DNA from: Sipunculus nudus
Lineage: Eukaryota; Annelida; Sipuncula; Golfingiida; Sipunculidae
Assembly: GCA_026874595.1 (NCBI GenBank)
Contig: CM049315.1
Span: forward strand, 14,969,664 to 15,033,663
Length of the DNA stretch: 64,000 nt
Reading direction: 5' to 3'
Positions 5,269-64,000 of the stretch are shown one piece after another (the stretch's first letter is position 1; each line of letters begins with the position of its first letter). The position numbers and the translations under genes are program-made. The notes below the pieces were generated by a model. That model did not search any database and had not been told where the DNA came from. It saw only the letters and a list, made by a program, of their open reading frames with translations.

Positions 5269-6424
5269 GTTTCAGACATCACATGACGATAACGAACAGA
5301 CCACCAGAGGTTTCAGACATCACATGGCGATTACAACCACACCAGCAGAAGTTTCATATAAAACATGGCGTTAACAACCACACCAGCAGATGTTTGAGAC
5401 ATCACATTGTGTTATCAACCATACCAATAGATGTTTAAGACATCACATGGCGATAACAACCACAGCAGCAGAAGTTTGAGACATCACATGGTGTTATCAA
5501 CCACACCAATAGATGTTTAAGACATCACATGGGGATAACAACCACAGCAGCAGAAGATTCAGATAACACATGGCGATAACAACCACACAAGTAGAAGTTT
5601 TAGACATCACATGGCGTTATCAACCACACAAACAGAAGTTCCAGACATCACACTGAGATAACAACCACACCAGTAGAAGTTTTAGACATCACATGGCGTA
5701 AAAAAAACCACACAAACAGAAGTTTCAGACATCACATGGCGTTAACAACCACACCAGTAGAAGTTTAAGACATCACGTGGCGATAACAACCACAAAAACA
5801 GAAGTTTCAGACATCACATCGCGATAACAACCATACCAACAGATGTTAGAGACATCACATGGCGATAACAACCACACAAACAGAAGTTCCAGACATCACA
5901 CTGAGATAACAACCACAGCAGCAGAGGTTTCAGATATCACATGGCGATAACAACCACACCAACAGACGTTTCAGACATCACATGGAGATAACGATCAGAC
6001 CAACAGAGGTTTCAGACATGACGTGGCGATACACACCCACGTCAGCAGATGATTCAGACATCACATGGCAATACTCACCACACTAGCATATGTTCCAGAC
6101 ATCACATGGCGTTAACTATTAGACGAACAGAAGTTTCTGACATCACATGGCTTTGACAACCACACCAGAAGTAGTTTCAGACATCACACGGCGTTAACAA
6201 CCACACCAGCAGAAGTTTCAGACATGACGTGGTGATAATGAACAGACCAAAATAATTTTCAGACATCACATTGGTTAACAACCACACCAACAGATGTTTT
6301 AGACATCACCTGGTGATAACAACCAGACCCGCAGAAATTGTTCAGACATCACGTGACCATAACAACCACACAAGCGGAAGTTTCAGATATCACACGTCAA
6401 TAATAAACAGGCCGAGAGAAAGTT
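5269..6424. repeat. 41-bp minisatellite, about 28 copies
   Basis: A unit beginning GTTTCAGACATCACATGG and continuing CGATAACAACCACACC, then AGCAGAA, repeats with starts at 5269, 5310, 5351 and 5392 (exact 41-bp steps) to about 6422. Copies differ at 10-25 percent of sites, so the array is old. The unit length is not a multiple of three and frames are broken, so it is not coding. An orphan fragment is at 7708-7730. Confidence 0.92.
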
Positions 6425-9991: not shown

Positions 9992-10492
9992 TAGACTGGT
10001 ACCCTGCTCTATTATGGCCCTCAGCCAAGCATAGAGACAAGCGTACAACGCCATCTTAAGTACTCCCAAACTCCTGACTTACCTGTAGACTGGTTCAAAC
10101 TCCAACAAGCACGCTCATACCGGTTGTCGTGGACGTTCATACGATCCTTGTTGATTATCCGTTAAAAGATTTCTTATAAAATAACTTTCTTTAGTTATTT
10201 CCAGTTTTCAAATATTGAAGAATGAGTTGTTGCACAAAAGCTTAATGATGGATGTAAAGATAATACGATATACTGAACCTTTGATATTCCACTGTTTGAG
10301 CAGTGATTTATTATTACTATCTATAAATCTAATCATTACGTCACACGTAATGTACAGCCAACTTTTGGTAACTTCTCTGAGCAAACGAAGTGCATATTTT
10401 TATCTGCCGGGAGTAAATAAGATGGCGTTGTACGCCCGTCTCTATGATTGGCCAAGAGCAGCGGTGCCATAATAGAGCGGCGTACCAGTCTA
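9992..10492. mobile_element. Mutator-like MITE, copy 1
   Basis: The termini TAGACTGGTAC and GTACCAGTCTA are inverse, with inverted similarity extending more than 75 bp (CTCTATTATGGC, ATAGAGAC, GCGTACAACGCCATCTTA). It is 501 bp with no ORF of note. It is homologous along its length to 56942-57479. Its target-site duplication is no longer clear. Confidence 0.75.
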
Positions 10493-34944: not shown

Positions 34945-37000
34945 GTGGTTTATGTTGTAACAAGGGGGTGTCACTTCTCTAAGGCAATGCAGAACTAGAT
35001 CAACTGCTTCCTCTTGGAACATATACCAATCGATAATATTGTTTGCGTTGGCCATGCATGTAGGCGAGTTGTTTTATTGTGGTTCAGACTTTGTCCAATC
35101 AACGCACCATACAGCAGGAATGTTCGTGTTACATACGTGTTTACGAATATTTATCACGCTTTGCCATTAAAAGGTTTATGAGTACACAACGCCCCATGTG
35201 AACGGTGACAGTATCATAAATCCCTCTGATATAAATGAGCCTCTTAGTCATTTCTTAGGTGCAAGTATTGATGATTTTTAGATGACTGGACAAAGTTAAT
35301 CTCATGTGTCAAACCCGTACGTGCTGCCAGCTGGGGGCGGCGGGTTTCGTTAAGGCCCAGTCACACATGCTTACGATTGGCAAACGGCCTTTGATCCCAA
35401 CTACCTACCAACTAAACTGATAAAGCGCCAAGAAACAGAAATTGATTATGTGTGTATAGTTTACATTATCAATTAAAAATTTTATCTTGTATGCACTGGT
35501 GTCTAAAGTCATCATTATCTTTGAATGATAAGTCATTGAAATAAAAAAAAACACATAAACAAAATCACATAACAATATACAATGTATATGCACAAGTATG
35601 TTTATTCTCATATAATGTTTCCCTACACAGGTAAACGTCTACAACCTCATGCCGCTCGGAAGCTTCGTATTTTTACCAAGCATAAAGATTGTCGTAACAA
35701 GTGATGGAAAAAAAGCAATGATTGTTACCTATAAGTAGAAGTTCTATCTCCTACGACATCTAATTTGTCAAAAATATCAAGCTGAAAAATACGGTACGGA
35801 TAAATGATCGGACCGGTTTCCCAGTTGTGTGCAGTTCAGAACAATCGCCCTTGCAAACTATAAATCATTGCGTGATGAAGCGTCTGGTGGTTTAAAAACA
35901 TACAAAAAAACACGTTAACAGAAAAATCTTGACTGATACAATTCAATTACACTTTGCTGTACCGGCCGTCCAATAATGGAACATGTCACAAACGGTCAAT
36001 ATAGGACGACACATATGGTTCCAAAATTGACAAAACTGCATAATATTAACAACCAATAAAAATGGGTTGAGTTGGGTAACAGAGACCTAATTTCAGGTTT
36101 CCACAGAGACTTTTTTAATGGACCTCCTTTGATGTCAAGTATGAAGATTCCAGGTCCTGAGGTTACGATTTGTGCCCTGTTAACAGATGACAGTTTCTTT
36201 GAAGGTCTCAAAAACAGAGAACAAAAATTGTAAAAATTGCAAAAAAATACATGTGGCGCAACCAGGTTACAGGAACTGATTAAACACTCCATGATGAATA
36301 GTCATGCAAAGAATCATGGTGATCAATGCATTAGTTATTCAGATAACTGAGCTTTCCATCATTTTCCATCACGACGAAAATATTTGAATCCTCAGCAGGC
36401 CATAAATTGTCGTTCTCGTTATTACTGCGCGGGCACTCTGACATCTCGATGGGGTCTCTTATGCGCTATTTTAGAAAAGTGCCGGGGAGTGCAGTGTCCG
36501 ATGTTTGGTTGCGATTGCGTGAATCACTGGACGTGACAACTTAAACACGAAACTGGACGTTCACTAGGCTTGTTATAGCAGCAAGAATCAAAGAGCCTGT
36601 GTGTGTTTTACAGCAACCGTGTGACGATGGTGCTGCCTCTTCTACATCGCTGTTCGGGTAGGATACTTTAAATTCGGACTCAGATCCCATACCTTCGGAT
36701 TCAGCGTCCTTTTACTAATATAAACATTCAGTAATTGATTTAAAGATAATCCGTTGAAAGTTTAATAAAAGTAGACCAGAAAAACGCTGATCCGACCGCA
36801 CACAGACTGCTCGGTTGGTTTATATCCACTTCTTTATTACGTGAGGAGCCCACCAAAATAATCTAAGCACACTCAATAGAAACATCAAGCGGCAAGTCAG
36901 ACTAACTAGATTTTCGCTAAAAGGGCTTTATGTAACTAGTGACCTTGATCAGCTTTAGCACTTATGCAAATAAATAGATTAAATGTTTTTGTTGTTTTTT
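34945..37000. other. No gene recognised
   Basis: Contains the dispersed-repeat fragment at 36131-36184. On the minus strand a 49-codon frame (36541-36690) starts MGSESEFKVSYPNSDVEE and has a protein-like composition, but it lacks any motif or splice partner. Confidence 0.4.
36131..36184 (+). repeat. Dispersed repeat fragment matching 22233-22287
   Basis: GATGTCAAGTATGAAGATTC, CAGGTCC and GATTTGTGCCCTGTTAAC align base for base with few changes. Confidence 0.65.
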
Positions 37001-37161
37001 GCTTGCCGGAATCAAAGATTTCGGCAAGCATATTGCTCAGTTGCGTATGTCTGTTTGTCTGTTTGTTGCTTGCCGGAAATCTTCGATTTCGGCAAGTTGG
37101 TTGGTCAGTTGCGTATGTCCATTTGTTTGTTGCTTGCCGGAAATCTTCGATTTTCGCAAGC
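37001..37161. repeat. Three GCTTGCCGG hairpins in the first leader
   Basis: Inverted arms GCTTGCCGGAAATC and GATTTCGGCAAGC flank a TTC loop, with a one-base bulge (37001-37029 with a variant AAA loop, 37068-37097, 37132-37161 with one arm change). Similar hairpins are at 38401-38430, 38461-38490, 38517-38546 and 44702-44730. Confidence 0.85.
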
Positions 37162-37320
37162 TGGTTGGTCAGTCGCGGATGTCTGTTTGTCTGTTTGTTT
37201 GTTTGTTTGTTTGTCTGTCCAGTCTCTACAGGTCGCAATTTTGATCCCATCGCTTTCAAACTTTCATAGTTTGTGTAAAATCAAAAATGCAAGAAGCCTA
37301 TTGTTTTTGAGCAATATAGG

Positions 37321-37342
37321 TCAAAGGTCAAGGTCAAGGTCA
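37321..37342 (+). promoter_or_regulatory. Tandem nuclear-receptor half-sites
   Basis: TCAAAGGTCA followed by two overlapping TCAAGGTCA (ERR/NR5A-type monomer sites). Equivalent sites occur once per leader at 38712-38720, 40728-40736, 42837-42845 and 44901-44909. Confidence 0.4.
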
Positions 37343-37775
37343 TCAAAAGTTCCTAAAGTGCTCTTTTCTTCATATCTCCATTACTATTTGTCATAGCCAC
37401 TTCAAACAGGGCTCATTTTAATCGGCATTCCAAGGCCTTTCTTCTGATATATATGTTGCTGAAATCTGCTGTTTCTATGGTTACACATTTTGGGGGGAAA
37501 CTCATGATTTTCGAAAATAAAAGGCCTAATTTTTCTAACTTTGTCATTTTTAAAGCTAGAGAGTTCTAGTTTTTTGCATCAGATAGTACTAAATAAGCTT
37601 TTAATTATACAAGTGAAAGTCTCGTAAAATCTCGCACCATTTCTCGTCAAACGAGAATTTTCGAGATTTCATTAAATATGGCTTACAGGTCGCATTTTTT
37701 AAACTATGACTTTGAAAATGACATATTTTGTGTTAATTAGAAATATCTCGAAACCAATTTTTCATTTTTTGGAAA

Positions 37776-37794
37776 TAGCCACCAGGGGGCGTGG
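37776..37794 (+). promoter_or_regulatory. CTCF-like site 1
   Basis: TAGCCACCAGGGGGCGTGG against the CTCF consensus TGGCCACCAGGGGGCGCTA. The core CCACCAGGGGGCG is exact. Confidence 0.55.
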
Positions 37795-38269
37795 TACATG
37801 AAACACTGTAACATATCATTTTTCTGCAATATCTCAAAAAATATTAAACGTGACACCATTTTTTGGGTCGTATCTGAAACTAGGAACATTGGCTTATCCC
37901 TTCGCACATGTTGCTTTGTGCTGCCGTTACCATGGTTACCAAATTTTGGGGTAAAACTTGACAATCTGAAAATTCGGAGTTTTCCAGCTTCTCTCTCTGT
38001 TGATATTTGCGATAGAAAGGTCTGGTGTTTGGCGTTAGACAGCATCCCTCTAGTTCTTAGTCATTCAATCGCAAGTCTCGTCATATCTCGCACCGTTTCT
38101 CGTGAAACGAGAACACGTGACCATTGAAAGAAATGCCTATAATTATGTCATTTTTCACGCTACAGACACATGGTTTGCAGCGCTGGATAGCGGCTGACAC
38201 TCGCAGTCACATTCAGGGGTCACATTGTTAGTCTCGTCAAATCTCGCGCCGTTTTTCGCCAAACCACGA

Positions 38270-38360
38270 AGACACGTGCCGTCGCCGCAAGTGGCGGCAG
38301 GGTCCCTACGGTGGGCGGCCGGCGTGTGCAGCGGTGCGTGACGGCCTCTCCGGGCCCCAT
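38270..38360. other. GC-rich island within the composite repeat
   Basis: About 90 bp with many CpG (CCGTCGCCGCAAGTGGCGG and GGTGGGCGGCCGGCG) in otherwise AT-rich DNA. It follows a diverged monomer and precedes a leader hairpin at 38401. Neither duplicated block contains it. Confidence 0.75.
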
Positions 38361-38984
38361 CTATGATCATACATGTTGGAGGCACAGTCCAGACTTTATT
38401 GCTTGCCGGAAATCTTCGATTTTCGCAAGCTGGTTGGTCAGTCGCGGATGTCTGTTTGTTGCTTGCCGGAAATCTTCGATTTTCGCAAGCATGTTGATCA
38501 CCCGCGTATGTTTGTTGCTTGCCGGAAATCTTCGATTTCGGCAAGCATGTTCGTCAGTTGCGTATGTCTGTTTGTCTTTTTGTTTGTTTGTTTGTCACGA
38601 CTCTCCAGGTCACACTTTTGCATCAATCAACTTGAAACTTACAGGCTTGATTGACAAACCAATTTCTAGGTGCCCTATTGTTTTTGGTCAACATTGCTCC
38701 AAGGTCAAGGGTCAAGGTCACGACAGGTATGGTTAACGGTTTTTGCACTATAACTTCGCCATAAATAGGCTTATCCACTTCTGCAATAGCTCATTTTTTT
38801 CGTCATCACCTGCCCTTACTTTTGACATGTAGCTTACTTAAATTTGCCGTTACCATGGTTACATTTTTTGGGCAAAAATCATGGGATTTCGTGATATTTT
38901 TCAAATTTGCAGCAATCGTACTGATTCTGAGATATTTTATGTAACACAAGAATATCTCGAAATTGTTTTTTCAGATTTTGGAAA

Positions 38985-39003
38985 TGGCCGCCAGGGGGCG
39001 TTG
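38985..39003 (+). promoter_or_regulatory. CTCF-like site 2
   Basis: TGGCCGCCAGGGGGCGTTG; differs from the consensus at three positions. Confidence 0.55.
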
Positions 39004-39441
39004 CAGATGAAAAAACATGAAAATTTGTTTTGGTGCTATACCTCCAGAACTATTAAACATTGGGCTATTTCCATCACAGCACCTTCAACTGGGGTCCATG
39101 GGCTTATTTTTGCGCATAGGTGCCAAAGTGCGCTATTGCCAGATTTCTCTATTTTTGGGGTAAAAACTTTTGAATTTTGAAAATATGCAGTTTTCAGCTT
39201 CTAACTCTGTCAGTTTTTATGCTGGAGAGGTCAATTTTTTTGCATCTTGTAGCCCTTGGTGAGTTCTCGGTGATCCACTCAAAAATCTTGCAAAATCTCG
39301 CACCGTTTCTCGTCAAACGAGAGTCTTCGAGATTTCATTAAATATGACCTACAGGTTGCATTTTTTTAACAATGGCTTTGAAAGTGATATATTTTGTGTT
39401 ATTTATAAATATCTCGAAATCAGTTTTTCATTTTTTGGAAA

Positions 39442-39460
39442 TAGCCACCAGGGGGCGTGG
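39442..39460 (+). promoter_or_regulatory. CTCF-like site 3
   Basis: TAGCCACCAGGGGGCGTGG, identical to site 1. Confidence 0.55.
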
Positions 39461-39749
39461 TACCTGAAACACTGTAACATATCATTTTTCTGCAATATCT
39501 AAAATAATTTTAAACATGGCACAATTTTTATCGTTGTATCTTAAACTAGGAACTTTGGCTTATTCCTCCGCACATGTAGCTTTGTGCTGCCGTTACCATG
39601 GTTACCAAATCTGTGGGTTAAACTTGACGATCTGAAAATATGCAGTTTTTGGCTTCTATCTCGGTTAATATTTATGTTTCAAGGGTCTAGTTTTTTGCAT
39701 AAGGCTGCTTCCCCTTGGTTCTAAGTCATTCAATTGCAAGTCTCGTCAA

Positions 39750-40545
39750 ATTTCGCTCGGTTTATCTTCAAACGAGAAAAAACGAGATTTCACGGAAATG
39801 CTTATAACTCGGCGACTTTTACAGCTATACAAGTCTAGTTTTCGGCATTTCATAACATATGACCAGCTTGACACGCCAGAAAAGAAATCAGGCCAAATCT
39901 CGCACCATATCTCTTCAAGCGAGAAAAAAACGAGATATCATGGAAATGCTTATAACTAGGCGACTTTTACAGCTACTCAGGTCTAGTTTTTGGCATTTGG
40001 TAACATTTGGCCAACTTGACATAGTAAAACTGCGATACTTGGCGAAATCCCGCACTATATCTGGTCAAATGTGGAAAAACGAGATTTCACAGAAATGAAT
40101 ATAAGTCGGCGACTTTCACGGCTAGACAGGTCTAGTTTTTGGCATTCATTAACATTTGGACGGCTTGACATGACAAACCTGCAAGACTGGCCAAATCTCG
40201 CACCATATATCGTCAAACGATAAAAAGGAGATTGCCCAGAAATGCTAATAACTCGGCGACTTTTACAGCTAGACAGATGTAGTTTTCGCCATTTCATAAC
40301 ATTTAGAGAGTTTGATATGACAAATCTACAAGACTGGCCAAATCCTGCACCATATCTCGTCAAACGAGAAAACACGAGAGTACACGGAAATGCTTATAAC
40401 TCGGCGACTTTTACAGCTAGACGGATCTAGTTTTCGCCATTTCGTAACGTTTGGCCGTCTTTACATAATAAAACTGCTCGTCTTGCCAAATCTCGTACTA
40501 TATCTCGTCAAGCGAGAAAAAAACATGATTTCACGTTTTCATGAT
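39750..40545 (+). repeat. 148-bp tandem monomers, block 1
   Basis: Starts of TATAACTCGGCGACTTTTAC-type words at about 39801, 39949, 40098, 40244 and 40393 give a step of 147-149 bp. Each monomer includes ATCTCGCACCATATCTCG, the hairpin TCTCGT-CAA-ACGAGA, TTTACAGCTAGACAGGTCTA and a GCTTGACATGACA-type word. Confidence 0.92.
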
Positions 40546-40929
40546 TCCATTTCCGGCAAGCGCGTGACCTCTGGTCATCTTGTTTGTTTATTTGTTTTTT
40601 TGTGTGTTTGTCTGCGCTCTCCTGGCCACAATTTTGCAGCAATCGACATGACCCTTACAGGGTTGATTTACAACCGAACACCCTGGAACCCTATTGTTTT
40701 TGGTCAACATTGCTCCAAGGTCAAGGGTCAAGGTCACGACAGGTGTGGTTAACGGTTTTTGCAATATAACTTCGCCATAAATAGGCTTATCCACTTCTGC
40801 AATAGCTCATTTTTTTCGTCATCACCTGGCCTTTCTTTTGATATGTAGCTTACTTAAATTTGCCGTTACCATGGTTACATTTTTTGGGCAAAAATCATGG
40901 AAATTGGAAAAAACACGAGCATTTTTTTG

Positions 40930-42540
40930 TAACTTTGTCAGTTTTTAAGCTAAGCAGATCTAGTTTTCGGCATTTTGTTCCACATGACCAGCTTGACACG
41001 ACAGAATTGAAAGTCACGCCAAATCTCGCGCCATATCTCGTCAAACGAGAAAATACGAGACTTCGCAGAAATGCTTATAACTCGGCGACTTTTACAGCTA
41101 GACAGATCTGGTTTTCAGCATTTCGTTCCACCAAACAAGCTTGACACGACAGAGCTGCAAGACAGGCCAAATCTCGCACCGTATCTCGTTAAACGAGAAA
41201 ACACGGGATTTCACGGAAATGCTTATAACTGGGCCAGTTTTGCAGCTAGACACGTCTGGTTTTCGGCATTTAGTTCCACTAGACCAGCTTGACACGACAG
41301 ATATGCAAGTCTGGGAAAATCTCGCACCGTATCTCGTCAAACGAGAAAACACGAAATTTCACGGAAATGCTTATAACTCGGCCAGTTTTACAGCTAGACA
41401 CGTCTGGTTTCCGGCATTTCCTTCCACATGACCAGCTTGACACGATAGATGTGCAAGTCAGGCCAAATCTCGCACCCTATCTCGTCAAACGAGAAAACAC
41501 GAGATTTCACGGAAATGCTTATAACTTGGCGACTTTTACAGCTAGACAGGTCTAGTTTTCGGCATTTTCTTTCACATGACCTGCTGGACATGACAGAACT
41601 GAAAGTCAGGCCGAATGTTGCACCGTATCTCGTCAAACGAGAAAACATGAGATTTCACGGCATTGGTTATAACTCGGCGAGTTTTACAGATAGACACGTC
41701 TGGTTTTCGGCATTTTGTTCCACTAGACCAGCTTGACACGACAGACATGCATGTCAGGCAAAATCTCGCACCGTATCCCGTCAAACGAGAAAACACGAAA
41801 TTTCACGGAACTGCAGCTAGACAGGTCTAGTTTTCGGCATTTAGTTCCACATGACCCGCTTGACATGACAAACCTGCAAGACTGGCCAAATCTCGCACCA
41901 TATCTCGTCAAACGATAAAAAAGGAGATTTCACAGAAATGCTAATAACTCGGCGACTTTTACAGCTAGAAAGATGTAGTTTTCGCCATTTCATAACATTT
42001 AGAGAGTTTGATATGACAAATCTACAAGACTGGCCAAATCCTGCACCATATCTCGTCAAACGAGAAAACACGAGAGTACACGGAAATGCTTATAACTCGG
42101 TGACTTTTACAGCTAGACGGATTTAGTTTTCGCCATTTCGTAACGTTTGGCCGTCTTGACATAATAAAAATGCTCGTCTTGCCAAATCTCGTACTATATC
42201 TCGTCAAGCGAGAAAAAAACATGATTTCACGTAAATGCTGATAACACCGCGACTTTTGCAGCTAGACAGGTCTAGTTTCCGGCATTTTGTAATATTTGAC
42301 AAACCTGACATGACAAAACTGGAAATCTCGCCAAAGCTGGCACCATTTTCCGTCAAACGAGAAAACACAAGATTTCATGCAAATGCTTATAACTCAGCGG
42401 CTTTTATAGCTAGACAGGTCTAGTTTTCGGCATTTCATATCATTTGGCCAGCTTGACATGACAAACCTGAAAACGTCTCACTGCTTCTTGTCAAACGAGA
42501 TTAACGGGATTTCATGAAAAAATTTTGAACTTGGTCCCTT
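40930..42540 (+). repeat. 148-bp tandem monomers, block 2 (about 11)
   Basis: Successive starts at 41074, 41222, 41370, 41518 and 41666 are exactly 148 bp apart. One monomer near 41814 has lost about 20-25 bp around its TATAACTCGG segment. The last three monomers (41865-42230) repeat in the same order as 40160-40540 and 44293-44665. Confidence 0.93.
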
Positions 42541-43110
42541 TTACACTAGAAAGATATGCAGCTGTTAAAGGTCAGCATGCATAAATAAACATATTATCCG
42601 TTTCTGCTGCCCCCACATTGTTGCTCATTCATATGACTGTTTCTATATGCACTCTCTGTCTATCTGTCTGTATCATTTCCATTTCCGGCAAGCGCGTGAC
42701 CTCTGGTCATCTTGTTTGTTTGTTTGTCTGCACTCTCCTGGCCACAATTTTGCCACAATCACCTTGAAACTTACATGGATGATAAAAAAAAAAATTTCTA
42801 GGTGCCCTATTGTTTTTGGTTAAAATAGGTCCAAGGTCAAGGTCACGACAGGTATGGTTAACGGTTTTTGCACTATAACTTCGCCATAAATAGGCTTATC
42901 CACTTCTGCAATAGCTCATTTTTTTCGTCATCACCTGGCCTTTCTTTTGACATGTAGCTTACTTAAATTTGCTGTTACCATGGTTACGCAATTTTGGGGA
43001 GAAATCATGGAATTTCCTGATATTTTTCAAATTTGCAGCAATCGTACTGATTCTGAGATATTTTATGTAACACAAGAATATCTCGAAATTGTTTTTTCAG
43101 ATTTTTGAAA

Positions 43111-43129
43111 TGGCCGCCAGGGGGCGTTG
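43111..43129 (+). promoter_or_regulatory. CTCF-like site 4
   Basis: TGGCCGCCAGGGGGCGTTG, identical to site 2 (block B partner). Confidence 0.55.
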
Positions 43130-43566
43130 CAGATGAAAAAACATGAAAATTTGTTTTGGTGCTATACCTCCAGAACTATTAAACATTGGGCCATTTCCAT
43201 GACAGCACCTTCAACTGGGGTCCATGGGCTTATTTTTGCGCATAGGTGCCAAAGTGCGCTATTGCCAGATTTCTCTATTTTTGGGGTAAAACTTTTGAAT
43301 TTTGAAAATATGCAGTTTTCAGCTTCTAACTCTGTCAGTTTTTATGCTGGAGAGGTCAATTTTTTTGCATCTTGTAGCCCTTGGTGAGCTCTCGGTGATC
43401 CAATCAAAAATCTTGCAAAATCTCGCACCGTTTCTCGTCAAACGAGAGTCTTCGAGATTTCATTAAATATGACCTACAGGTTGCATTTTTTTAACAATGG
43501 CTTTGAAATATATATATTTTGTGTTATTTATAAATATCTCGAAATCAGTTTTTCATTTTTTGGAAA

Positions 43567-43585
43567 TAGCCACCAGGGGGCGTGG
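43567..43585 (+). promoter_or_regulatory. CTCF-like site 5
   Basis: TAGCCACCAGGGGGCGTGG, block B partner of site 3. Confidence 0.55.
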
Positions 43586-43859
43586 TACCTGAAACACTGT
43601 AACATATCATTTTTCTGCAATATCTAAAATAATTTTAAACATGGCACAATTTTTATCGTTGTATCTTAAACTAGGAACATTGGCTTATTCCTCCGCACAT
43701 GTAGCTTTGTGCTGCCGTTACCATGGTTACCAAATTTGTGGGTTAAACTTGACGATCTGAAAATATGCAGTTTTTGGCTTCTATCTCGGTTAATATTTAT
43801 GTTTCAAGGGTCTAGTTTTTTGCATAAGGCTGCTTCCCCTTGGTTCTAAGTCATTCAAT

Positions 43860-44695
43860 TGCAAGTGTCGTCAAATTTCGCTCGGTTTATTGTCAAACGA
43901 GAAAAAACGAGATTTCACGGAAATGCTTATAACTCGGCGACTTTTACAGCTACACAGGTCTAGTTTTCGGCATTTCATAACATATGACCAGCTTGACACG
44001 CCAGAAAAGAAATCAGGCCAAATCTCGCACCATATCTCGTCAAGCGAGAAAAAACGAGATATCATGGAAATGCTTATAACAAGGCGACTTTTACAGCTAC
44101 TCAGGTCTAGTTTTTTGGCATTTGGTAACATTTGGCCAACTTGACATAGTAAAACTGCGATACTTGGCGAAATCTCGCACTACATCTGGTCAAATGTGGA
44201 AAAAACGAGATTTCACAGAAATGCATATAAGTCGGCGACTTTCACGGCTAGACAGGTCTAGTTTTTGGCATTCATTAACATTTGGACGGCTTGACATGAC
44301 AAACCTGCAAGACTGGCCAAATCTCGCACCATATCTCGTCAAACGATAAAAAAGGAGATTTTACAGAAATGCTAATAACTCGGCAACTTTTACAGCTAGA
44401 CAGATGTAGTTTTCGCCATTTCATAACATTTAGAGAGTTTGATATGACAAATCTACAAGACTGGCCAAATCCTGCACCATATCTCGTCAAACGAGAAACA
44501 CGAGAGTACACGGAAATGCTTATAACTCGGCGACTTTTACAGCTAGACGGATCTAGTTTTCGCCATTTCATAACGTTTGGCCGTCTTGACATAATAAAAC
44601 TGCTCGTCTTGCCAAATCTCGTACTATATCTCGTCAAGCGAGAAAAAAACATGATTTCACGTAAATGCTGATAACACGGCGACTTTTGCAGCTAG
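43860..44695 (+). repeat. 148-bp tandem monomers, block 3
   Basis: Part of block B of the duplication; it ends abruptly at GCAGCTAG, where a new leader (TTTGTTGCTTGCCGG) begins. Confidence 0.9.
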
Positions 44696-45349
44696 TTTGT
44701 TGCTTGCCGGAATCAAAGATTACGGCAAGCATATTGCTCAGTTGCGTATGTCTGTTTGTCTGTCTGTTTGTCTGTCTGTCTGTTTGTTTGTCTGCACTCT
44801 CCTGGCCACAATTTTGCCACAATCACCTTAAAACTTTCAGAGATGATGGAGAATTAAATTTCTAGGTGCCCTATTGTTTTTGGTTAAAATAGGTCAAAGG
44901 TCAAGGTCAAGGTCGTCAAAAATTCTCAAAACGGTTTTTTCTTTATATCTTTGTGACTATTAGTCGTATCTACTTCAACAATAGCTCATTTTAATCGTCA
45001 TTCCAAGGCCTGTCATCTGGTGTGTAACAGACTCAAATTTGCCGTAACCATGGTTACAAATTTTGGGGGAATAGTCATGATATTCGAATATAAGGGGTCT
45101 TATTTTTCTAACTTTGTCAGTTTTAAAGCTAGTGTGATCTAGTTTTTTGCATCAGGTAGCATTTAACTAGTACTACAAGATTTTATAACAAGTATTGCAG
45201 TATCTCGTAAAATATCTCGTGAATAGAGATATTTCGAGATTTCATTCATCTTGCGCCAAAAGCCACATTATTGCAGGAATCTTTCTGAAACTGACATATT
45301 ATAAGTCCTACACTAGTGTCTCGAAATCGTTTTTTTCATTTTTTGAATA

Positions 45350-45368
45350 GGGCCGCTAGGGGGCGCTG
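45350..45368 (+). promoter_or_regulatory. CTCF-like site 6
   Basis: GGGCCGCTAGGGGGCGCTG; core GGGGGCGCT as in the consensus. Confidence 0.5.
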
Positions 45369-45669
45369 GATGCGAACCTCCCGAACATATCATATTTTGG
45401 CCATATCTCCAAAATTATAAGCATCAATTACATAAACTGTAGCTTTTTTCTTCCTTTGAGTCTTCTCCATAACCTGGAGTAGTCATCTGGACTCAATTTT
45501 GAGTCACTTTGTCAGTGTTTGTCAGTTGTCCACAAATACGCCTGCTTGTTGGCTCTTGCGTTTCACATATAGCATTCTTTAGGCCACAGTTTTGACGGAA
45601 TCCTTTTGAAACTATTAAATCTTATGTCTTACACTAATATCTAGAAATAAATTTTTCATTTTCCGGATA

Positions 45670-45688
45670 TGGCCACTAGTGGGCGCTG
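45670..45688 (+). promoter_or_regulatory. CTCF-like site 7
   Basis: TGGCCACTAGTGGGCGCTG; differs from the consensus at three positions. Confidence 0.5.
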
Positions 45689-46000
45689 CACACGACTCTC
45701 ACACACATACCGTTGTATTGGCCATATCTCTACACCCAAAGCCTCAGTTACATAAGCTATAGCTTATTTTCTTCCTTTGAGTCTTCTCCATAACCTGATT
45801 AAGGCATCTGGTTTCAATCTTCTGTCACTTTGTCCGTGTGTTCATCTGTTTGTCCGTTATCCTCAAAGTCGCCTGCTTGCTGGTTCTTACGCCTTACATA
45901 TAGCATTCTACAGGCCACAGCTTTGACGGAATCCTTTTGAAACTGAGACATCTCATGTCATACACTAATAATACGAAACGCATTTGTCGTCTTCGGAATA

Positions 46001-46019
46001 TGTCTGCTAGAGGGTGCTA
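46001..46019 (+). promoter_or_regulatory. CTCF-like site 8, diverged
   Basis: TGTCTGCTAGAGGGTGCTA at the same place in the third ~325-bp unit; weaker match. Confidence 0.35.
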
Positions 46020-46337
46020 CAGTCGAGCCTCCCAAGTATATCATTAATTCGCCATACCTCCTAAACTATAAATCTAAATTACATAAATTATAACTCATTT
46101 TTCTTTCCTTTGAATCTTCTCAATAACTAGCTTATGTCATCTGGTGTCAATCTTGTCTCACAAAGTCAGTATGTCTGTCTGTTCGTCTTTTGTTGTCAGC
46201 TTTGTCTGCTTGCCTGTTCTTTTGTCTCATATGTCATTCTACGGGCCACATATTCTCAGCAATGTCCCTGAGAGTCATTCCATTAATAGAAAACCGACAA
46301 TATGTTCTGTCTGTCCGTCTGTGTTTCACTTCCGAAT

Positions 46338-46368
46338 TCCGGCAAGCGTTCGACCTATGGTCGTCTAG
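46338..46368 (+). mobile_element. Helitron-like 3' terminus
   Basis: TTCCGGCAAGCG (inverse of the leader start) is followed by the hairpin CGACC-TAT-GGTCG (46351-46363), then T and CTAG (46365-46368), then poly-T. Helitrons end in CTRR preceded by a short hairpin. Related internal ends with TGACC-TCT-GGTCA are at 40565-40577 and 42697-42709. The hairpin is closer to CTAG than the usual 10 or so bases, and no Rep/helicase is present. Confidence 0.4.
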
Positions 46369-46370
46369 TT

Positions 46371-48035
46371 TTTTTTTTTTGGCTTGTCAATATTGCTGTG
46401 TTTACTAAGAGCTTTAAGATAAACAAGCTCATTGTTCCGTCAAAAGGGCGTTATAAGAACTCTTTTTAACTGAAACTAGCTAGAAATGATTTATGTGTAC
46501 GTAGAGCGAGCCATAAATCAAATAAATTAGATAGAAAAGGCAGGTAATTAGCTAGCTTCAAGCTCTAGGTTTCTGTAAATATCCGAGAGAGCGCATGTTT
46601 GTCTCATACGAAACCTGTTCCCGTTGTACGGTAAGCTTAAATAATGGCGTCACAAATGACATACCACTTACAACTCCTGTCGTACACAGTTCAGCTCTCA
46701 TGAACAATAAACCGTGCACAACAAATCTAGGGTACCCAATGTATAAAATACCTCCATATCTGGGATATTTGGTTGTCATAAGGTTCCAAGTGTATTTCAT
46801 GCGAAGTGGATAACTGCATAATCACTTTGAATAGTGGATATCAACTTTATAGCAAAGGAGATGCGGGCCTTATTACAACAAAAGTGTAATAGGCTTAACT
46901 TACTGAATTGCCATTAGATATAATCGTTTACATCTCGTCTGTAATTGGAATCAATTATTAGCTCAAAAAAGGCTCAAAAAATAATTATATGTGTCATCTA
47001 CTTATCCATATGTCTATCATGCAACCCCGAACACACACATAACAACGCTTATTTACACGCGCGGATTCGCTAGACATATATTGGCTTGTAATGTCAAGTA
47101 TATGATTTGATGAAATATATGAATTCTCTTATTTTATTGACGTTTCGTATACATCTTTTAGCTCCTTCCTTTAAATGGGGAACATTCACAATTTGCGATG
47201 GTCTTTGTGCGTATATGCTGATATTATCTTGTTCCAGTTCGTGAAATCCCTTAATTTGATGTATTTATGCATATATATATATATATGTTTTCTTATAAAT
47301 GTCTTGTCCGATCATCTATCCGTTTCAAAAAGTTATTCTTTCCTTTCCCCATCTCAGTCAACCGATTACGTTTTACTAGTAGGAAGAATTGCTTTTAAAA
47401 TCATAATCAATGACTTAAAAAAAAGACTTACTTTCTATATTACTTGAAATCTGCTGTATACTAGTACCTAAAATATTGACCTCAGTATATAGTCTGACAT
47501 GTACATTGGTATTCATAATGAAGCCATGAATACACCTTGATCCTAGGTCGACTGTCGTTGGACAATTGTTCAGGGTTCCGTTTTGATGTTGTTCGTTATT
47601 TTTTATTCGTGTATCTCTGACAGTATTAGATTCTTTGCTTGTACATACATAATCGTTTTAATTGATTATGCAAAATGCAATCGATTTAATTGATTTTGAA
47701 AGAAAATGACCAATCATCGATTGAATCGATTAATCGGAACACAACTATGTTTTACAAGCTGATGGGAACATTATTTATGTGATGCCCATCTCCAAGGGGG
47801 GGGGGGGGGGGGGGTAGCCAAACCAAGGTATCGTTTATTACATCATACACCAAACCTGATTGAATACAAAAAAAAAACAAAGACTTAAAGCTTTTTCATT
47901 TGTGCAGGATTTATTGACAATTTTATGTGATGATTGTCGACATATATCAAAATCAGGGAATTAATCAAGTGAACAAATCAAAAAACATTTTACATACATT
48001 TATAAAACAGCACAATGATACACTAATATAATTCT
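46371..48035. other. No gene recognised
   Basis: AT-rich with a short (TA)n at about 47273-47286 and a poly-G run at 47798-47814. Confidence 0.5.
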
Positions 48036-51510: not shown

Positions 51511-52745
51511 GTATAATAAGGGTATACAAATACAATATATGTAAACTTGGTTTATAAGTGTATACCAATAAAATATATGTAAACCTATTTAATTGGTGTA
51601 TACCAATGTAATATATGTAAATTTGTGTAATAAATGTATACCAATATAATAAATGTAAACCTGTTTAATAAGTGTATACCAATATAATATATATATATAT
51701 ATAAGCCTGTTAAACAAGTGTATACCAATTAAACATTTGTTCACATGTTTAATAAGTGTATACCAATATAGTATATGTAAACCTGTATCATCAGTGTTGT
51801 TAAGGGGTGACATAAAGGAGTGATCGGCCAAATATTTTCCCCTGAGTAATTTGTCTTTGTAACAAAAAGCCGATCCAGTATTTTCCCCTCAGTAATTTTT
51901 CTTCGTAACAAAATGAGGCCTCGTCCGGGATTCGAACCCATGTCGGTGGCGCACATGTCCGGCGTTCCAATCGCTTCGCTAGAAAAGCAAGCTTCACTAG
52001 CAAGACAGTTCGGTCCGCTTTTTTATGTCACCACGTATCAGTGTACACCAATATAAAATGTGTAAATCTGTTTAACAAGTGCATACCAGTATAATATATG
52101 TAAAACTGTTAAATAGGTGTATACCAATATAATATGGAAATCTTTAAATAAGTGTATACCAATACAACATGTGTAAACCTGTTCAATAATTGTATACCAA
52201 TATTATAAATGATTACCTGTGTAATCAGTGTATACCAATATGATAAATGTAAACCTGTTTAATAAGTGTATACCAATATAATATATGTAAACCTGTTAAA
52301 TAAGTGTACTTATTCAACGTATGTAAATCTGTGTAATCAGTGTATACCAAAATGATAAATGTAAACCTGTTAAATAAGTGTATACCAATATAATATATGT
52401 AAACCCGTTTTATAAGTTTATACCAATTCAACATTTGTAAACCTGTTTAATAAGTGTATACCAATATAATATGTAAACCCGTTTAATAAGTGTATACTAA
52501 TTCAACATTTGTAATTCTGTTTAATAAGTGTATACCAATATAGTATATGTAAACTTTTTTAACATATATATACCATAATATCTGTAAACCTGTGTTATAA
52601 GTGTACACCAATATTACATATGTTAACCTGTTCAATAAGTGTTTACCAATATAGTTTATCTAAACCAGTTTAATAAGTGTATATGTGTGTATACCAGTAT
52701 AACGGCAAGCGTATACGAGTGTGATAAATGTATTGCGATATAATT
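51511..52745. repeat. 38-bp minisatellite filling an intron, interrupted by a SINE
   Basis: A unit like GTGTATACCAATATAATATA then TGTAAACCTGTTTAATAA repeats in 38-bp steps (52228, 52266 and so on), with frequent small indels. It occupies most of the intron between exons h and i and is interrupted at 51804-52032 by a SINE-like element. Confidence 0.9.
51804..52032 (-). mobile_element. SINE-like element in the 38-bp array, copy 1
   Basis: On the minus strand it starts GGTGACATAAAAAAGCGGAC and has a perfect B-box-like GGGTTCGAATCCCGG. It ends TTTATGTCACCCC, so GGTGACATAAA is repeated in inverse at both ends. The tail TTTTCCCCT-AGTAATTT-TCTT-GTAACAAAA occurs twice in direct order on the plus strand (about 51832-51868 and 51881-51921). 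Confidence 0.75.
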
Positions 52746-56796: not shown

Positions 56797-56941
56797 AAAT
56801 AGTCCCGATCATTCCACAATACCTGACACGACCGTTGAGGCAAGTAGTCCCGACCATTCCACGATACCTGACACGACCGTTGAGACAAGTAGTCCCGACC
56901 ATTCCACAATACCTGACACGACCGTTGAGACAAGTAGTCCC
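56797..56941. repeat. 45-bp minisatellite, split by a MITE
   Basis: AGTCCCGA words at 56801, 56846 and 56891, with AGTCCC at 56936, are exactly 45 bp apart. The unit continues after the MITE at 57480-57512. Confidence 0.92.
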
Positions 56942-57479
56942 TAGACTGGTACCCTGCTCTATTATGGCCCTCAGCCAAGCATAGAGACAGGCGTACAACG
57001 CCATCTTAAGTACTCCCAGTTGCAACACCTAACTTACCTGAAGACTGGTTCCAACTCCAGTTTGCACGCTCATACCGGTTGTCATGGACGTTCACGCGAT
57101 CCTCGCTGATTATCCGTGAAGATATCTTATAAAATAATTTTCTTTATATATTTCTAGTTTTCTAATATTGAAATATGATTGGTTGCACAAAAATTGAAAG
57201 CTGGATGTATAGATAATACGATATACTGAATCTTTGATATTCCATTGCACTTAGCATGGATTTATTATTAATATCTATTGATCTAATCATTAAAGTCACA
57301 CGTAATATACAACCAACTTTTGGCATCTTCTCTGAGCAAACGAAATACGTATTTTTAACATATATAATATATACTGGAGTTGGAACCAGTCTGCCGGGAG
57401 TACATAAGATGGCGTTGTACGCCCGTCTCTATGATTGGCATAGAGCAGCAGTGCCATAATAGAGCGGGGTACCAGTCTA
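56942..57479. mobile_element. Mutator-like MITE, copy 2, with 9-bp target duplication
   Basis: The termini TAGACTGGTACC and GGTACCAGTCTA are perfect inverses, and inverted similarity reaches more than 100 bp inward (CTCTATTATGGC, GCGTACAACGCCATCTTA, AGACTGGTTCCAACTCCAG). AGTAGTCCC flanks both sides (56933-56941 and 57480-57488). Long terminal inverted repeats with a 9-bp duplication fit Mutator-like elements. It is homologous to 9992-10492. Confidence 0.85.
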
Positions 57480-57696: not shown

Positions 57697-59028
57697 CTAA
57701 AATTATATAAAAAGGTAGTTTCACATGTCAAATGATCCCAGTCGGCACAGCGGGAACTTCACTGAAGCCCAGACAACCATAAATGTATTTGATTAAGGCT
57801 ATACTTGACTCTTTAATATAACCACTCATGTATTTCGTATATGTTTTCCTTAACATTAAATTTTCTATTAAATGTCTTTCGTACCTCAACATCAATACCC
57901 TCAGAAAAACAAGTATGTATCCGGTATTTCACCGAGCCTGTGAACAATTACACAGTAACACGTTTGTTACTGGCATGGAGTGTGCCTAAAAAAACTCCCC
58001 TTCATTATGAGAAAGCGAGAATATCTTGCCAGTAAACTTCATCAACTGTTAAGATAATCGAAAGTAAGACTTTTTTTTTCAAAATTCCGTCTATCGTGGA
58101 CAACTTATATTATATCTTATATCCCTATTAAAATTGTTCATTGTCTTCCTAGTACTGTGTCTTGGATAATACAGAAGGGCTTTCAGGAACGCGATAAGTA
58201 TCGGTGACGCTTAAAATCCCATCGCAACGCTCCGCAGTGAAGGTACAATCAGACGTGCGAGTACCAAAGCGTCATTCTCTCGTCAAAGTCGCTAAATTCG
58301 TGTCAGCTGCTTTATCCAAATTATTCAACTATGTAAGTGTTCTGACAGTTTAGTTATCTTTAACTCACCAAACAAGCGGAACCTATGCTTAAATAAATAA
58401 TTACGAATTTCCTGCCACGCATTGTACGCCGCATTAGCGATCTATTGACATAAAATAAAAAAAGAAAGAATATCTATTTAATTATACAAGGTTTTTTCAC
58501 TATTTCAACTATTTTGCGATGCTACAATCCATTGGACTAAAGATATTATACGCGCGACCCGGACTCTCTATTTTTCTTTGCCTACTAAAACACCTTGATT
58601 CAAGCAAACAAAATCCCGTTTCTCGTTTCATTGGTATAATATCGCGTACGCATGTGAATAATCACCTCCTTCGGTTGAAAATAATGTGTGTTGTTTATAA
58701 GACATTCTTGCCTATGGAAGCAAGTTTGCTAACGTTTTGATATTTGATTTTTGTTGGCATGTTATATTTTTTATCAATTCAGATCTTAAATAATTGACTT
58801 CTGAAAACTGTCATTTCTGCAATATATTGCACCAAACGCCTAGGAGTAGGCCCAGAAAGTAAAGGTTGTCTGTATTTGGTAATAAAGCGATTATAAAGAA
58901 CCTTTAAATTGTCATACTCTTGTGGAATGTTTAAAAAATACAAATAGCTGTACTGAGCCACAGTTGAAATCAATCCATGTAAAGTCGTCAGTAAAATATA
59001 CTGAAAATATAATAAAGGTTCCACTTAC
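57697..59028 (-). other. Intron between exons d and e
   Basis: 1,332 bp; no repeat or exon recognised apart from short A/T runs. Confidence 0.55.
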
Positions 59029-59283
59029 TACAGTAGCCATCACCTGTCGTTATGTATTTGTCCTGACAGACACAAGTATAACCTCCTGCAGTGTCTACAC
59101 ATTTCTGTGACGTAGTACACAAAGATGAATTCCGGGAACACTCATCAATGTCCGTCTCACATTTATCACCCGTCCAGCCCGGCTTGCAGTCTGTACAGCC
59201 AGTGATATTGTCACACCGCAGCACATTATCACCACAGTTACACAAGTACTGACAGTTTTCTCCCCAGTGTAAACTGTCACATG
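59029..59283 (-). CDS. Exon d: EGF/laminin-like plus calcium-binding EGF
   Basis: A 255-base exon, phase 1-1, with acceptor CTTTTTTAG and donor TGTA|GTAAGT. It carries two modules without an intron between them. The first (res. 121-161) has eight cysteines, starts CDSLHWGENC, and ends CKPGWTGDKC, resembling EGF/laminin-type repeats of MEGF or scavenger-receptor-like proteins. The second starts DIDEC and ends GDGYC with six cysteines; CVDTAGGYTCVC fits the Asx-hydroxylation pattern. NIT and NSS are possible N-glycosylation sites. Together with exons a to c this gives at least five consecutive EGF-type modules, so the extracellular part is probably rod-like and calcium-stabilised. Confidence 0.92.
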
Positions 59284-60611
59284 CTAAAAAAGAATACACA
59301 TTTTTATTTGTACGGTTATACGATTATACATAACATGACACGTTTGCATTTACCAACAGATGTATACACAGCAATGATCCCATAAAAATTACCTTCAGTA
59401 CTTCATAGATATTCACAAGGCTTCTCCAAAAAGAGTTTTCGGATAAAGCCTTTTTTGCGGATCATTGATTTGTTGTTTTGTGTGAGTGTCATACCACTAG
59501 GGATGTGAACTTCCAGGTTCTTTTCAGTCAGTCAGTCAAAATAACAGGCACACCAGACATTAACACCAAAAGAAAAATTCTAAGACAGTCTTAACTAAAA
59601 TAACTAACAAATATAATAACAAATTAATGGGTTACTTACAGATCTCGGGGGGGGGGGGGGGGGGGTGCCGTCAACACTAACAATTATTACGTTAGTTCAC
59701 AGAGTCCAATAATCCTCATAACACTAATCTTCCTAACACAGACAATTCAGAATGTTCCAGGTCACATGATTTCTCGCTCTCACGTGACGTCTAGACGTTC
59801 TGGTGGCCTCTGGCGTAATCCATGTGTACACGGAGCATAGTCCAGTCCCAGCGTAATGGTCACAACACACAACTGGTTCTTCCTGCGGAATAACTGTTAA
59901 TCGTCCGTAAAACACAATCCACGTGCCGCATACCGAATGCTCCTGTGGAACCCTGAATCAACGGCTCTCTCAGTTACAGTCTACTGTAATCTTTCAGTTA
60001 CCGGATACCGAACAAACGCACTCTCTAGTGAAATTAAGCACCATCACAGTTTCGCGTCAAGACAAAGTCCTCTTGCTTGTTCCTGGGAGCACTCACCATC
60101 ACAAGAATGCCTGCCCTTCGGCAAAAAAAAAAAAAAACACTCTCTCTGAAGCACTTTACATGCAAGTGTCAACAAGGTGGCCTCCCTCAGACCTTAACTG
60201 TCAATAACCACTGACGCGATCGCCAATCTGGACACACAGAAGATAGCAGACCAGCCGGTTGGACTGCGGATCAAAAGCATGCTCAGGTGACGCTACACTC
60301 ACGAAGCGCTCCGGCTCTCCTGAAGGTAGCTAGGATTCAGCATCTCTTTGTGCTTTTGTGTATAAATAAAGCAAAATGCCCCGAATATTACCGACTGATG
60401 AATCTGAGAGATAGAGGGGGGGGGGGGGGGGGAGAGAGAAAAGGTTCCCCGTTCGCTCCCTATTTAAGTTGGTCAAATAGACAAGAACTAAACAAGGTCT
60501 GAGGAGTATATCAATGGTGATCGGTCAAACACACTGCCTTAATATGAGATCGACCACAATTTTGGCTGGTGATTATAGGTGTAGTTTACTATGTGGAGGG
60601 TAACTACTGAC
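59284..60611 (-). other. Intron between exons c and d, with two poly-G runs
   Basis: Poly-G at 59648-59666 (after GATCTCGG) and 60416-60432. A more GC-rich stretch (about 59750-60300) has short ORFs without motif and a poly-A run near 60123. Confidence 0.55.
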
Positions 60612-60734: not shown

Positions 60735-61451
60735 CTGAAATCATAAATAAACGCTATGGATCCATAGTTTGTGATATCGTATGCAGTTTAAAAGGCAAGG
60801 CTGAGTGAACTGACACTATTGACATGAAACGCGTCAAAGTCACAGTTCATACATGTCTGAGAAGCATGTAGCCATACTCATAGTTTGTAAGCAATAACTG
60901 GACCCCCCCCCCCCCTGAGAAGTTTGATACTGAACTTCCTTATAATCATAATAAAATTTTGTTTTCTCCCTTTCGTTGAATATATATAAAAATGTTGCAG
61001 GAAAGTGTGTGTTCCATAATCGCAATATATTCTGTTTGACCAAGTTGTTAAAATGCTCAGTTCAGTTGTCATGGTAAATAGAAATGGATCTATGTTATCA
61101 TTATAATTTAATCATATCATAATTTAATCATCATAATTAAGTTTCATTCCATTATATATAGCCATGGCATCAAAAATGTACTATAAAACTGAAACTGCGT
61201 CCACTTTTCAATATAAAGCGAAACCAAGAAGAATTTCTTGTAACCGTAACTGGTGTCGTATTTTCAAGTAAGGCAGTGTAATGCTTGAACGACACAGAAG
61301 CAATTATGTAATACTTCTAATATCTTTCGAAGGTTATAATTATTATTTCGAGTGGCTAGATTTCGACTCCATATGGAAACCACGGCATGTTAATGATAAT
61401 GTATATATTTATATTGATCTTTGCGCTTCAACTAGTCGGTAAAATGTTTAC
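60735..61451 (-). other. Intron between exons b and c
   Basis: 717 bp with a poly-C run at about 60903-60914; otherwise AT-rich and featureless. Confidence 0.55.
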
Positions 61452-61562
61452 CGTTGCATGACTTGCCGTCGGTATCAAGTTCGTACCCTGGTCTACACTG
61501 ACAGGACTCCACAGTACCATTCTTCACACAGATATGGTCACAGGACTTCGTGCAGGTCATGT
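61452..61562 (-). CDS. Exon b: EGF-like domain, acceptor not canonical
   Basis: The exon encodes a six-cysteine EGF module starting MTCTKSCDHIC and ending TDGKSC, with an NGT glycosylation sequon. The donor (AACG|GTAAAC) is good and its split codon G|AC joins exon c as Asp. By phase and homology to its neighbours the exon should begin at 61562, giving 111 bases in phase 1-1. The two bases before it on the minus strand are CG, not AG, after a good T-rich tract. The reading frame stays open upstream through that tract and gives a hydrophobic stretch (ALIILLSTLLLIFLHD), so an alternative first exon with a signal peptide cannot be excluded. T-rich tracts translate into Leu/Ile/Phe trivially, so I prefer a mutated acceptor or a base error. 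Confidence 0.7.
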
Positions 61563-61674
61563 CGTGTAAAAAAATAAGCAAAAGTGTACTAAGTAAGATG
61601 ATCAGTGCTTTCGATGAAAAAGAAACGTTCTGTTTAAAGTAGAAAAGTAGTAAATCATGACAATGCATATATAT

Positions 61675-61850
61675 AGAGAAGGAGAGACATACAGAGAGAG
61701 AGAGATATGAAAAGCCATCCTGGTTCATTGTATATAGAGATGGAGCTAGAATACACAGACAAGTCGGTTCACTTCCGATGGAAATCGAAGCCATGCTCTT
61801 TCGATTTCCTGTCGGCTGCTTTAACCACTAAGCTACGACAGATCCCAAAC
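61675..61850 (-). mobile_element. tRNA-derived SINE
   Basis: The minus strand reads GTCGTAGCTTAGTGGTTAAAG, a good tRNA A-box region, followed by CGAAAGAGCATGGCTTCGAT and an AG-rich 3' end near 61690. It lies in the intron between exons a and b. Confidence 0.7.
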
Positions 61851-62905: not shown

Positions 62906-62914
62906 CTGTAAGTG

Positions 62915-64000
62915 AGACACTACATGTTACCATAGTCTAAATGTGTGCTCGTGAGACAGTACATGTTACCGTATCCCGGTTGTGTGTTCGTGAGACAGTA
63001 CCTGTTACCGTAGTCCAGGTATGTGCTGGTGAAACCCTACCTGTTACCGAGGTTAGGGTGTGTGCTCATGAGAGAAATCATGTTACCGTTGTCTAGGAGT
63101 GTGTTCGTGAGACAGTACATATTACCGTGGTCCAGGTGTGTGCTCGTGAGACATTACATGTTACAGAGGTTAAGATATGTGCTCATGAATGAGTTCATGT
63201 TATCGTAGTCTAGGAGTGTGTTCTTGAGACAGTTCATGTTACCGTGGTCTAGGTATGTGTTCCTGAGACAGTACATGTTACCGTGGTCAAAATGTGTGCT
63301 CGTTAGACAGTACATGCTGCCGTGGTTTCAGTGTGTGCTCATGAGACACTACATGTTACCGAGGTTTAGGAGTGTGTTCATGAGAGAGTACATGTTACCG
63401 TAGCCCGGTTGTCTGTTCGTGAGACTGTAACTGTTACCATGGTCCAGGTGTGTGCTCGTGAGAGAGTTCATGTTACCGTGGTCTAGGAGTGTGTTCTGGA
63501 GACAGTACATGTTACCGTGGTCTAGGTGTGTGTTCGTGAGACAGTACATGTTACCGTGGTCTAGGTGTGTGTTCGTGAGACAGTGCATGTTACCGTGGTC
63601 AAAATGTGAGCTCGTGAGACAGTACATGCTGCCGTGGTTCCAGTGTGTGCTCATGAGACACTACATGTTACCGTTGTCTAGGTGTGTGTTCGTGAGACAG
63701 TACATGTTACCGTGGTCCAGGTGTGTGCTCGTGAGACAGTACATGTTACCGTGGTCTAGGAGTGCGTTCTTGTGACAGTACATGTTACCGTGGTCTAGGA
63801 GTGCCTGACAGTGCATGTTACCGTGGTCAAAATGTGAGCTCGTGAGACAGTACATGTTACCGAGGTTTAGGAGTGTGTTCATGAGAGAGTACATGTTACC
63901 GTAGCCCGGTTGTCTGTTCGTGAGACTGTAACTGTTACCATGGTCCAGGTGTGTGCTCGTGAGAGAGTTCATGTTACCGTGGTCTAGGAGTGCGTTCTTG
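62915..64000. repeat. 39-bp minisatellite with higher-order structure, runs off the edge
   Basis: Units like ACAGTACATGTTACCGTGGT then CTAGGTGTGTGTTCGTGAG repeat in 39-bp steps (for example 63541 and 63580), about 28 copies. A group of 13 monomers recurs: GAGGTTTAGGAGTG at 63361 and 63862, 501 bp apart, which is 13 x 39 less a 6-bp deletion near 63806. 39 is divisible by three, so both strands stay open, with 13-residue repeats such as LDHGNMYCLTNTH. I regard these ORFs as by-products. It lies upstream of exon a, probably in an intron. Confidence 0.92.

Follow-up and report, generated by a model that had tools for sequence, protein, structure and literature searches.

In mammals, the short interspersed element (SINE) B2 spreads CTCF sites by copying. 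To our knowledge, little is known about the placement of CTCF sites in animals outside vertebrates and insects. For invertebrates, a review states that direct evidence of the formation of topologically associating domains (TADs) via loop extrusion is lacking (PMC10658181). Among mobile elements that contain satellite-like repeats, the Cg_HINE elements of Crassostrea gigas are non-autonomous Helentrons with a defined layout: a 5' subterminal inverted repeat (subTIR) with a complementary inverted repeat, a microsatellite, satellite-like repeats, and a 3' subTIR followed by a palindrome (PMC7492417). Their 5' subTIR is 11 to 12 bp long and its complementary inverted repeat lies 1 to 12 bp away; the microsatellite is of the GTCY type in several elements, and the repeats, mostly of 140 to 180 bp, have a fixed orientation (PMC7492417). 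In the Helitron-N_Cgi families, for which Boxes 1 to 5 are defined, some members have a conserved 156-bp segment (Box 3) located between the microsatellite and the repeats (PMC8268682). We describe here a 64-kb stretch of DNA from Sipunculus nudus (64,000 nucleotides of contig CM049315.1, hereafter the window), in which a probable nest of Helentron-like elements carries eight CTCF-like sites in a single orientation.

The eight sites are located on the plus strand between positions 37776 and 46019, and five of them contain an exact CCAGGGGGCG core. When this core was searched on both strands of the window with at most one mismatch, eight occurrences were found for 0.43 expected. Six are exact, five of these inside the repeats (37782, 38991, 39448, 43117 and 43573, all on the plus strand) and one outside (25664, plus strand); the two occurrences with one mismatch are at 45356 (plus strand), inside the repeats, and at 55964 (minus strand), outside. 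Sites were also scored as 19-mers with the CTCF matrix MA0139.1, a vertebrate matrix used here with counts that may deviate from the published ones. Word search and matrix agree on sites A1 (37776..37794, 22.5 bits), B1 (38985..39003, 23.5 bits), A2 (39442..39460, 22.5 bits), B2 (43111..43129, 23.5 bits), A3 (43567..43585, 22.5 bits) and C1 (45350..45368, 24.9 bits), while site C2 (45670..45688, 22.9 bits) and the decayed site C3 (46001..46019, 9.4 bits) come from the matrix. Seven of the eight sites lie in the range of 22.5 to 24.9 bits, leaving only C3 below it. A, B, C1 and C2 all retain the CCRCYAG half of the motif, which lies upstream of the G-run.

These scores were compared with two kinds of random expectation. 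The best score in 200 dinucleotide-shuffled versions of the window averaged 13.7 bits and never exceeded 23.5 bits; 11 matches of at least 15 bits are observed in the window, versus at most three per shuffle, and 21 matches of at least 12 bits, versus a shuffle mean of 1.4 and a maximum of 6. Over positions 36901-46400, seven matches reach 22 bits or more, versus at most one with each of 1000 column-permuted matrices. Shuffles and permuted matrices together exclude a chance origin for seven of the eight sites; C3, taken alone, is below the chance level. An earlier note on this DNA had reported eight sites, five with an exact core, in one orientation, at fixed places in leader modules and multiplied through the shared descent of a repeat. 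Both scans confirm the sites, with the qualification that the eighth has decayed, and the eight copies of the module that contains them (module K, below) can be aligned so that all eight 19-mers occupy the same columns.

The carrier extends over 36996..46366 (plus strand) and was delineated by exact boxes, profile search and comparison of bodies. A box, GCTTGCCGGAA, is found without mismatch seven times on the plus strand (37001, 37068, 37132, 38401, 38461, 38517 and 44702) and three times on the minus strand (40551, 42683 and 46337), and the 64-kb window contains no further exact copy beyond these seven 5' and three 3' subTIRs. With their inverted repeats, the 5' subTIRs span 37001..37030 and 44701..44732, which share the AATC type, 37068..37097, 38516..38547, and 37132..37161, 38401..38430 and 38461..38490, all in the plus orientation. 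In four of the seven cases, the complement that follows the left box departs from the 11-mer by at most two mismatches, and a weaker inverted repeat, TTTTCGCAAGC, is present in the last three listed. A box profile matches the minus strand at all seven left boxes, with E-values of 1.2e-6 to 0.017 that are not independent because this profile, like that of K, was built from the copies it finds. Single-strand folding of three of the seven left boxes gives z-scores of -5.9 to -7.2 (hairpin z of -6.97 at 37001..37030, -5.89 at 38516..38547 and -7.15 at 44701..44732). The 3' subTIRs, also supported by exact box and profile and each followed by a palindrome in its sequence, are located at 40544..40577 and 42676..42709, both with TGACCTCTGGTCA, and at 46330..46366, with CGACCTATGGTCG and then TCTAG and a T run (all plus orientation). 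The right ends of the elements run into T-rich DNA.

Between these ends, microsatellites of the TGTC and TTTG types follow the left boxes at 37180-37218 and 44749-44794 and, by reading of the sequence, after the 38517 box; between stacked boxes, few microsatellite units are left. Central arrays of 148-bp repeats, oriented as their flanks, occupy 39768-40535, 40943-42473 and 43892-44695, and the fifth body contains 330-bp units instead. No Helitron-like Pfam domain was detected in ten of the eleven stop-to-stop open reading frames (ORFs) of at least 110 amino acids in the nest: eight of these ten have no Pfam match and two have matches below the cut-off only. An Rfam scan of the window returned nothing inside the array. 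From this layout, we favor with moderate confidence a nest of non-autonomous Helentron-like (HINE-like) elements, a judgment that covers jointly the nature of the nest and the multiplication of the site-bearing module K along with the element. A plain satellite is rejected as the carrier because element ends frame the repeats. This refines the "satellite-like repeat" of the earlier note: the site resides in module K and is absent from the 148-bp satellite and from one whole body.

Profile searches distinguish four modules, L (about 125 bp), X (about 43 bp), S (148 bp) and K (about 100 bp), whose arrangement defines five bodies, all in the plus orientation. Body 1 (37222..38278) reads L, X, S, K, X, S. 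Body 2 (38599..40535) reads L, X, K, S, K, X and ends with the 148-bp S array; body 4 (42730..44695) has the same modules, and an alignment of the two over 1951 columns shows 96.3% identity. Body 3 (40615..42557) is made of L, X and a long 148-bp S array, with no K. Body 5 (44794..46297) opens with L, X and S and continues with three units, each about 330 bp long and containing a single K. Because bodies 2 and 4 are nearly identical, the eight sites represent about five lineages: A (37776, 39442 and 43567), B (38985 and 43111), C1, C2 and C3. A profile of S built from the satellite repeats only also picks up S in the leaders, at E-values of 1e-15 to 0.16, most of them below 0.01. These matches, which are independent because no leader entered the profile, indicate a common origin of the satellite and part of the leader. 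The first parts of K and L are weakly similar (best E-value 0.0003, in body 5).

Bodies 2, 3 and 4 come after a row of three left boxes (38401-38517). At the end of bodies 2 and 3, a right box gives way to a microsatellite and then to the following leader, with no left box in between. This fits the pattern expected of an element inserted into the microsatellite of another. Nested insertion is not enough as the sole account: the left boxes at 37068 and 37132 have no bodies, and the S array of body 4 breaks off at the start of the last element (44694-44702) and is not taken up again past the 3' end of that element (46366). Local duplication was therefore probably involved, and we consider it as likely a contributor as nested insertion. 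A GC-rich segment with no module match (38279-38395) separates body 1 from the stacked boxes. The central part was probably assembled through repeated duplication of related modules, one of which, K, ends with a near-consensus CTCF site. The site probably multiplied through tandem duplication, within the element, of units about 456 and 330 bp long, and also when whole elements were inserted or duplicated side by side. Copied along with the element, all eight K sites face the same way. Anatomy and homology are seen directly in the sequence; the order of events is what we infer from them. Such a spread of sites needs no benefit to the host.

Outside 36401-46500, the only similarity to the array in the window is at 202-318 (minus strand), a fragment devoid of K that shows about 70% identity to X and S as found in the leaders. 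Four sequence patterns searched in viral contigs returned three, one, zero and zero stretches, and the first two of them, searched in genome contigs, returned zero and one. When the array was compared by BLAST with the five pattern-matched loci, the comparison yielded only the searched word and matches of 17 to 28 bases, with E-values of at least 0.006, and we take these loci for chance occurrences. For the letters TTACCATGGTTAC, no mention was found in the literature.

The conservation of the core is a weak indication that A, B, C1 and C2 are under constraint. Departures from the majority letter amount to 8 of 65 cells in the 13-bp core, 69 of 370 in the 75 upstream columns and 91 of 300 in the 60 downstream columns, and the core is slower than the downstream flank (p = 0.0015). 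When drift from the consensus is simulated at the upstream rate, a mean matrix score as high as that observed is obtained in 2.1% of runs with five tips, 0.6% with four and 0.9% with three; at the downstream rate, it is obtained in at most 0.01% of runs. The observed changes thus spare the matrix score beyond simulation (P = 0.02 and P <= 0.0001, respectively), with the P of 0.02 being rough: the tests involve five lineages, a star tree and a majority consensus that serves both as ancestor and as reference for flank rates, and the sites tested were chosen because they match the motif. Among the 142 13-column windows of K, the core has the highest mean identity across five lineages (79%, versus a mean of 62%), ranks second with four lineages, behind columns 340-352, and is joint first with four other windows when three lineages are used.

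We may also hypothesize that the sites are passive hitch-hikers: the ancestral K would have held a CTCF-like word by chance, this word would have been kept through youth or homogenization of the copies, and CTCF would be unbound or inconsequential. The score-sparing changes and the rank of the core in K argue against this scenario, and a number of observations weigh the other way, against a CTCF cargo retained by Helentron-like elements. Compared with the upstream flank of K, the core shows no significant slowing (p = 0.14). The site has been lost in C3, the most diverged copy, and body 3 has no K at all; the near identity of bodies 2 and 4 indicates recent copying. Over whole units, windows that equal or exceed the core in conservation number 87 of 342 between A1 and C1, 53 between A2 and C1 and 69 between A1 and A2, so that the core is not exceptional at this scale. 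These facts speak for hitch-hiking, the window count concerned being that between A1 and A2. Within K, columns 340-352 are about as conserved as the core, and the full 19-mer of A is 26% off consensus, versus 19% in its own upstream flank. The matrix itself is a vertebrate one, with counts that may be inexact. Two weaker minus-strand matches (13.8 bits, at 42726 and 44790) lie inside L modules; a single orientation is thus a property of the eight K sites, while the matches above 12 bits in the array as a whole include exceptions to it. As for the carrier, the hairpins at the three right boxes fold no better than shuffles (z of -0.48 at 40544..40577, -0.48 at 42676..42709 and -1.55 at 46330..46366), and, although TT directly precedes all seven left boxes (GTTTGTT in five), as would be the case with insertion at TT without target duplication, the ends lie within microsatellites. 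In our assessment, hitch-hiking has an even chance of being the correct explanation. The earlier proposal that the core is kept while flanks drift is partly supported, by the downstream flank and the matrix score and not significantly by the upstream flank; in the diverged units at 45.3-46.0 kb, retention is seen in C1 and C2 and not in C3.

Excluding the array (36901-46400), the window contains 12 matches of at least 12 bits, versus a mean of 1.8 with permuted matrices, none of 1000 of which reaches 12 matches. Two pairs are not independent, leaving ten: matches 35322 and 35324 overlap on opposite strands, and 55961 and 55993 lie at or beside one small tandem repeat. The strongest matches are at 5024-5042 (minus strand, 22.7 bits) and 35324-35342 (plus strand, 22.5 bits). 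This enrichment suggests that a vertebrate-like CTCF motif is in use in the host genome. Among spiralians, CTCF-like motifs mark TAD borders in squid (PMC9023564) and annelid open chromatin (PMC7854359), further cases of such a motif in use outside vertebrates. These two cases differ from ours in that the sites, in the text available, are not linked to mobile elements (PMC9023564, PMC7854359); those of the annelid occur mostly as one motif per open region, without a clear directional arrangement in the same text (PMC7854359). We consider that host CTCF probably recognizes the intact sites when chromatin is open, with about equal chances for and against. If bound, the bank of seven same-facing sites would hold up cohesin on one side only, in the manner proposed for mammalian Dxz4; that such a barrier matters to the host is rather doubtful.

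Another explanation is that the conserved word in K serves a different factor or the mobile element itself, as a GC-box for KLF/SP-type factors, an internal promoter or a sequence used by the transposition machinery, its likeness to CTCF being incidental. A-type copies do contain, on the minus strand, CCACGCCC, which we take to be a KLF word, and K holds other conserved stretches. However, copies B and C are without the KLF word, and the CTCF-typical CCRCYAG half persists across A, B, C1 and C2; we consider this explanation unlikely. Other words are found in the leaders. On the minus strand, GTAACCATGGTAAC, presumably the RFX X-box consensus, occurs exactly at 37926, 38849, 39592, 40865, 42974 and 43717, that is, in six of the eight X modules, for 0.38 expected in the window, and no exact match was found in the window outside X modules. 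Similarly, TCAAGGTCA, which we assume to be a nuclear-receptor half-site, is present in all five L modules (37328, 37334, 38712, 40728, 42837 and 44901); with a seventh copy at 36940 (minus strand), just outside the nest, the window contains seven for 0.52 expected. Both words were picked after seeing the sequence, and a big motif library offers many such matches; we regard them as leads only. One may further imagine that the Helentron-like element spreads through the genome a whole regulatory cassette, in which L contributes nuclear-receptor half-sites, X contributes RFX X-boxes and K contributes directional CTCF sites. The same-facing CTCF banks seeded in this way would serve as mobile insulators or loop anchors and would keep the chromatin of the element open for transposition, an improbable scenario in our view.

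Finally, co-option of the locus by the host as a Dxz4-like directional CTCF platform, anchoring loops or insulating neighboring genes, is very unlikely: seven strong same-facing sites in 8 kb, an extra plus-strand site 2.4 kb upstream (35324) and weaker opposite-facing matches downstream (49169, 16.2 bits; 55961, 14.7 bits) are compatible with it, but duplication alone yields same-facing sites, the downstream matches are weak, the one at 55961 being in a small tandem repeat, and there is no sign of such a platform besides the motifs.

The rest of the window contains repeats and possible gene fragments. Copies of another dispersed repeat, 82% identical and with ends that also match in reverse, are found at 56932-57479 and 9982-10492. 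Minisatellites occupy 5264-6394 (41-bp units), 52040-52683 (38 bp) and 62912-63992 (39 bp). Two exon-like ORFs on the minus strand encode EGF-type domains, with an EGF_CA match above cut-off at 58988-59320 and a cEGF match just below cut-off at 61432-61824; they are perhaps parts of one animal gene. The second overlaps a tRNA match at 61770-61842 (minus strand), above the Rfam gathering score and the only Rfam match in the window.

The nest is best understood by comparison with known systems. With Cg_HINE and, as far as the available descriptions go, Helitron-N_Cgi, it shares the layout of box, microsatellite, central repeats and palindrome, a likeness at the level of description. Unlike in Cg_HINE, five bodies and ten ends are stacked here in 9.4 kb, and the leader is long, itself repeated, and bears CTCF-like sites. 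Three papers on oyster satellites, PMC7492417 and PMC8268682 included, do not use the word CTCF in their main text. In the literature on Helitrons, molluscs and invertebrate CTCF, as judged from titles and the opening lines of abstracts, we saw no mention of Helentrons that carry CTCF sites. The novelty would thus reside in a CTCF-like cargo on a known kind of satellite-bearing element, an interpretation that is plausible but unproven. If it is true, a single insertion would provide a genome with a bank of several same-facing, near-consensus CTCF sites, and insertions in both directions would constitute a natural experiment on orientation; the cargo may also explain why the part of the element outside the satellite stays recognizable. 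SINE B2 is likewise a mobile element that distributes a CTCF site through copying; it is a mammalian retroposon, whereas the carrier here would be a DNA element of the rolling-circle type with several sites per copy. A second parallel is the DXZ4/Dxz4 macrosatellite of the mammalian X chromosome (PMC5899087). CTCF binding and orientation-dependent contacts were shown there, whereas our nest is known from its sequence alone, and Dxz4 is a single-locus macrosatellite, unlike the apparently mobile elements of the nest; what the two have in common is a bank of tandem-oriented CTCF motifs within tandem repeats.

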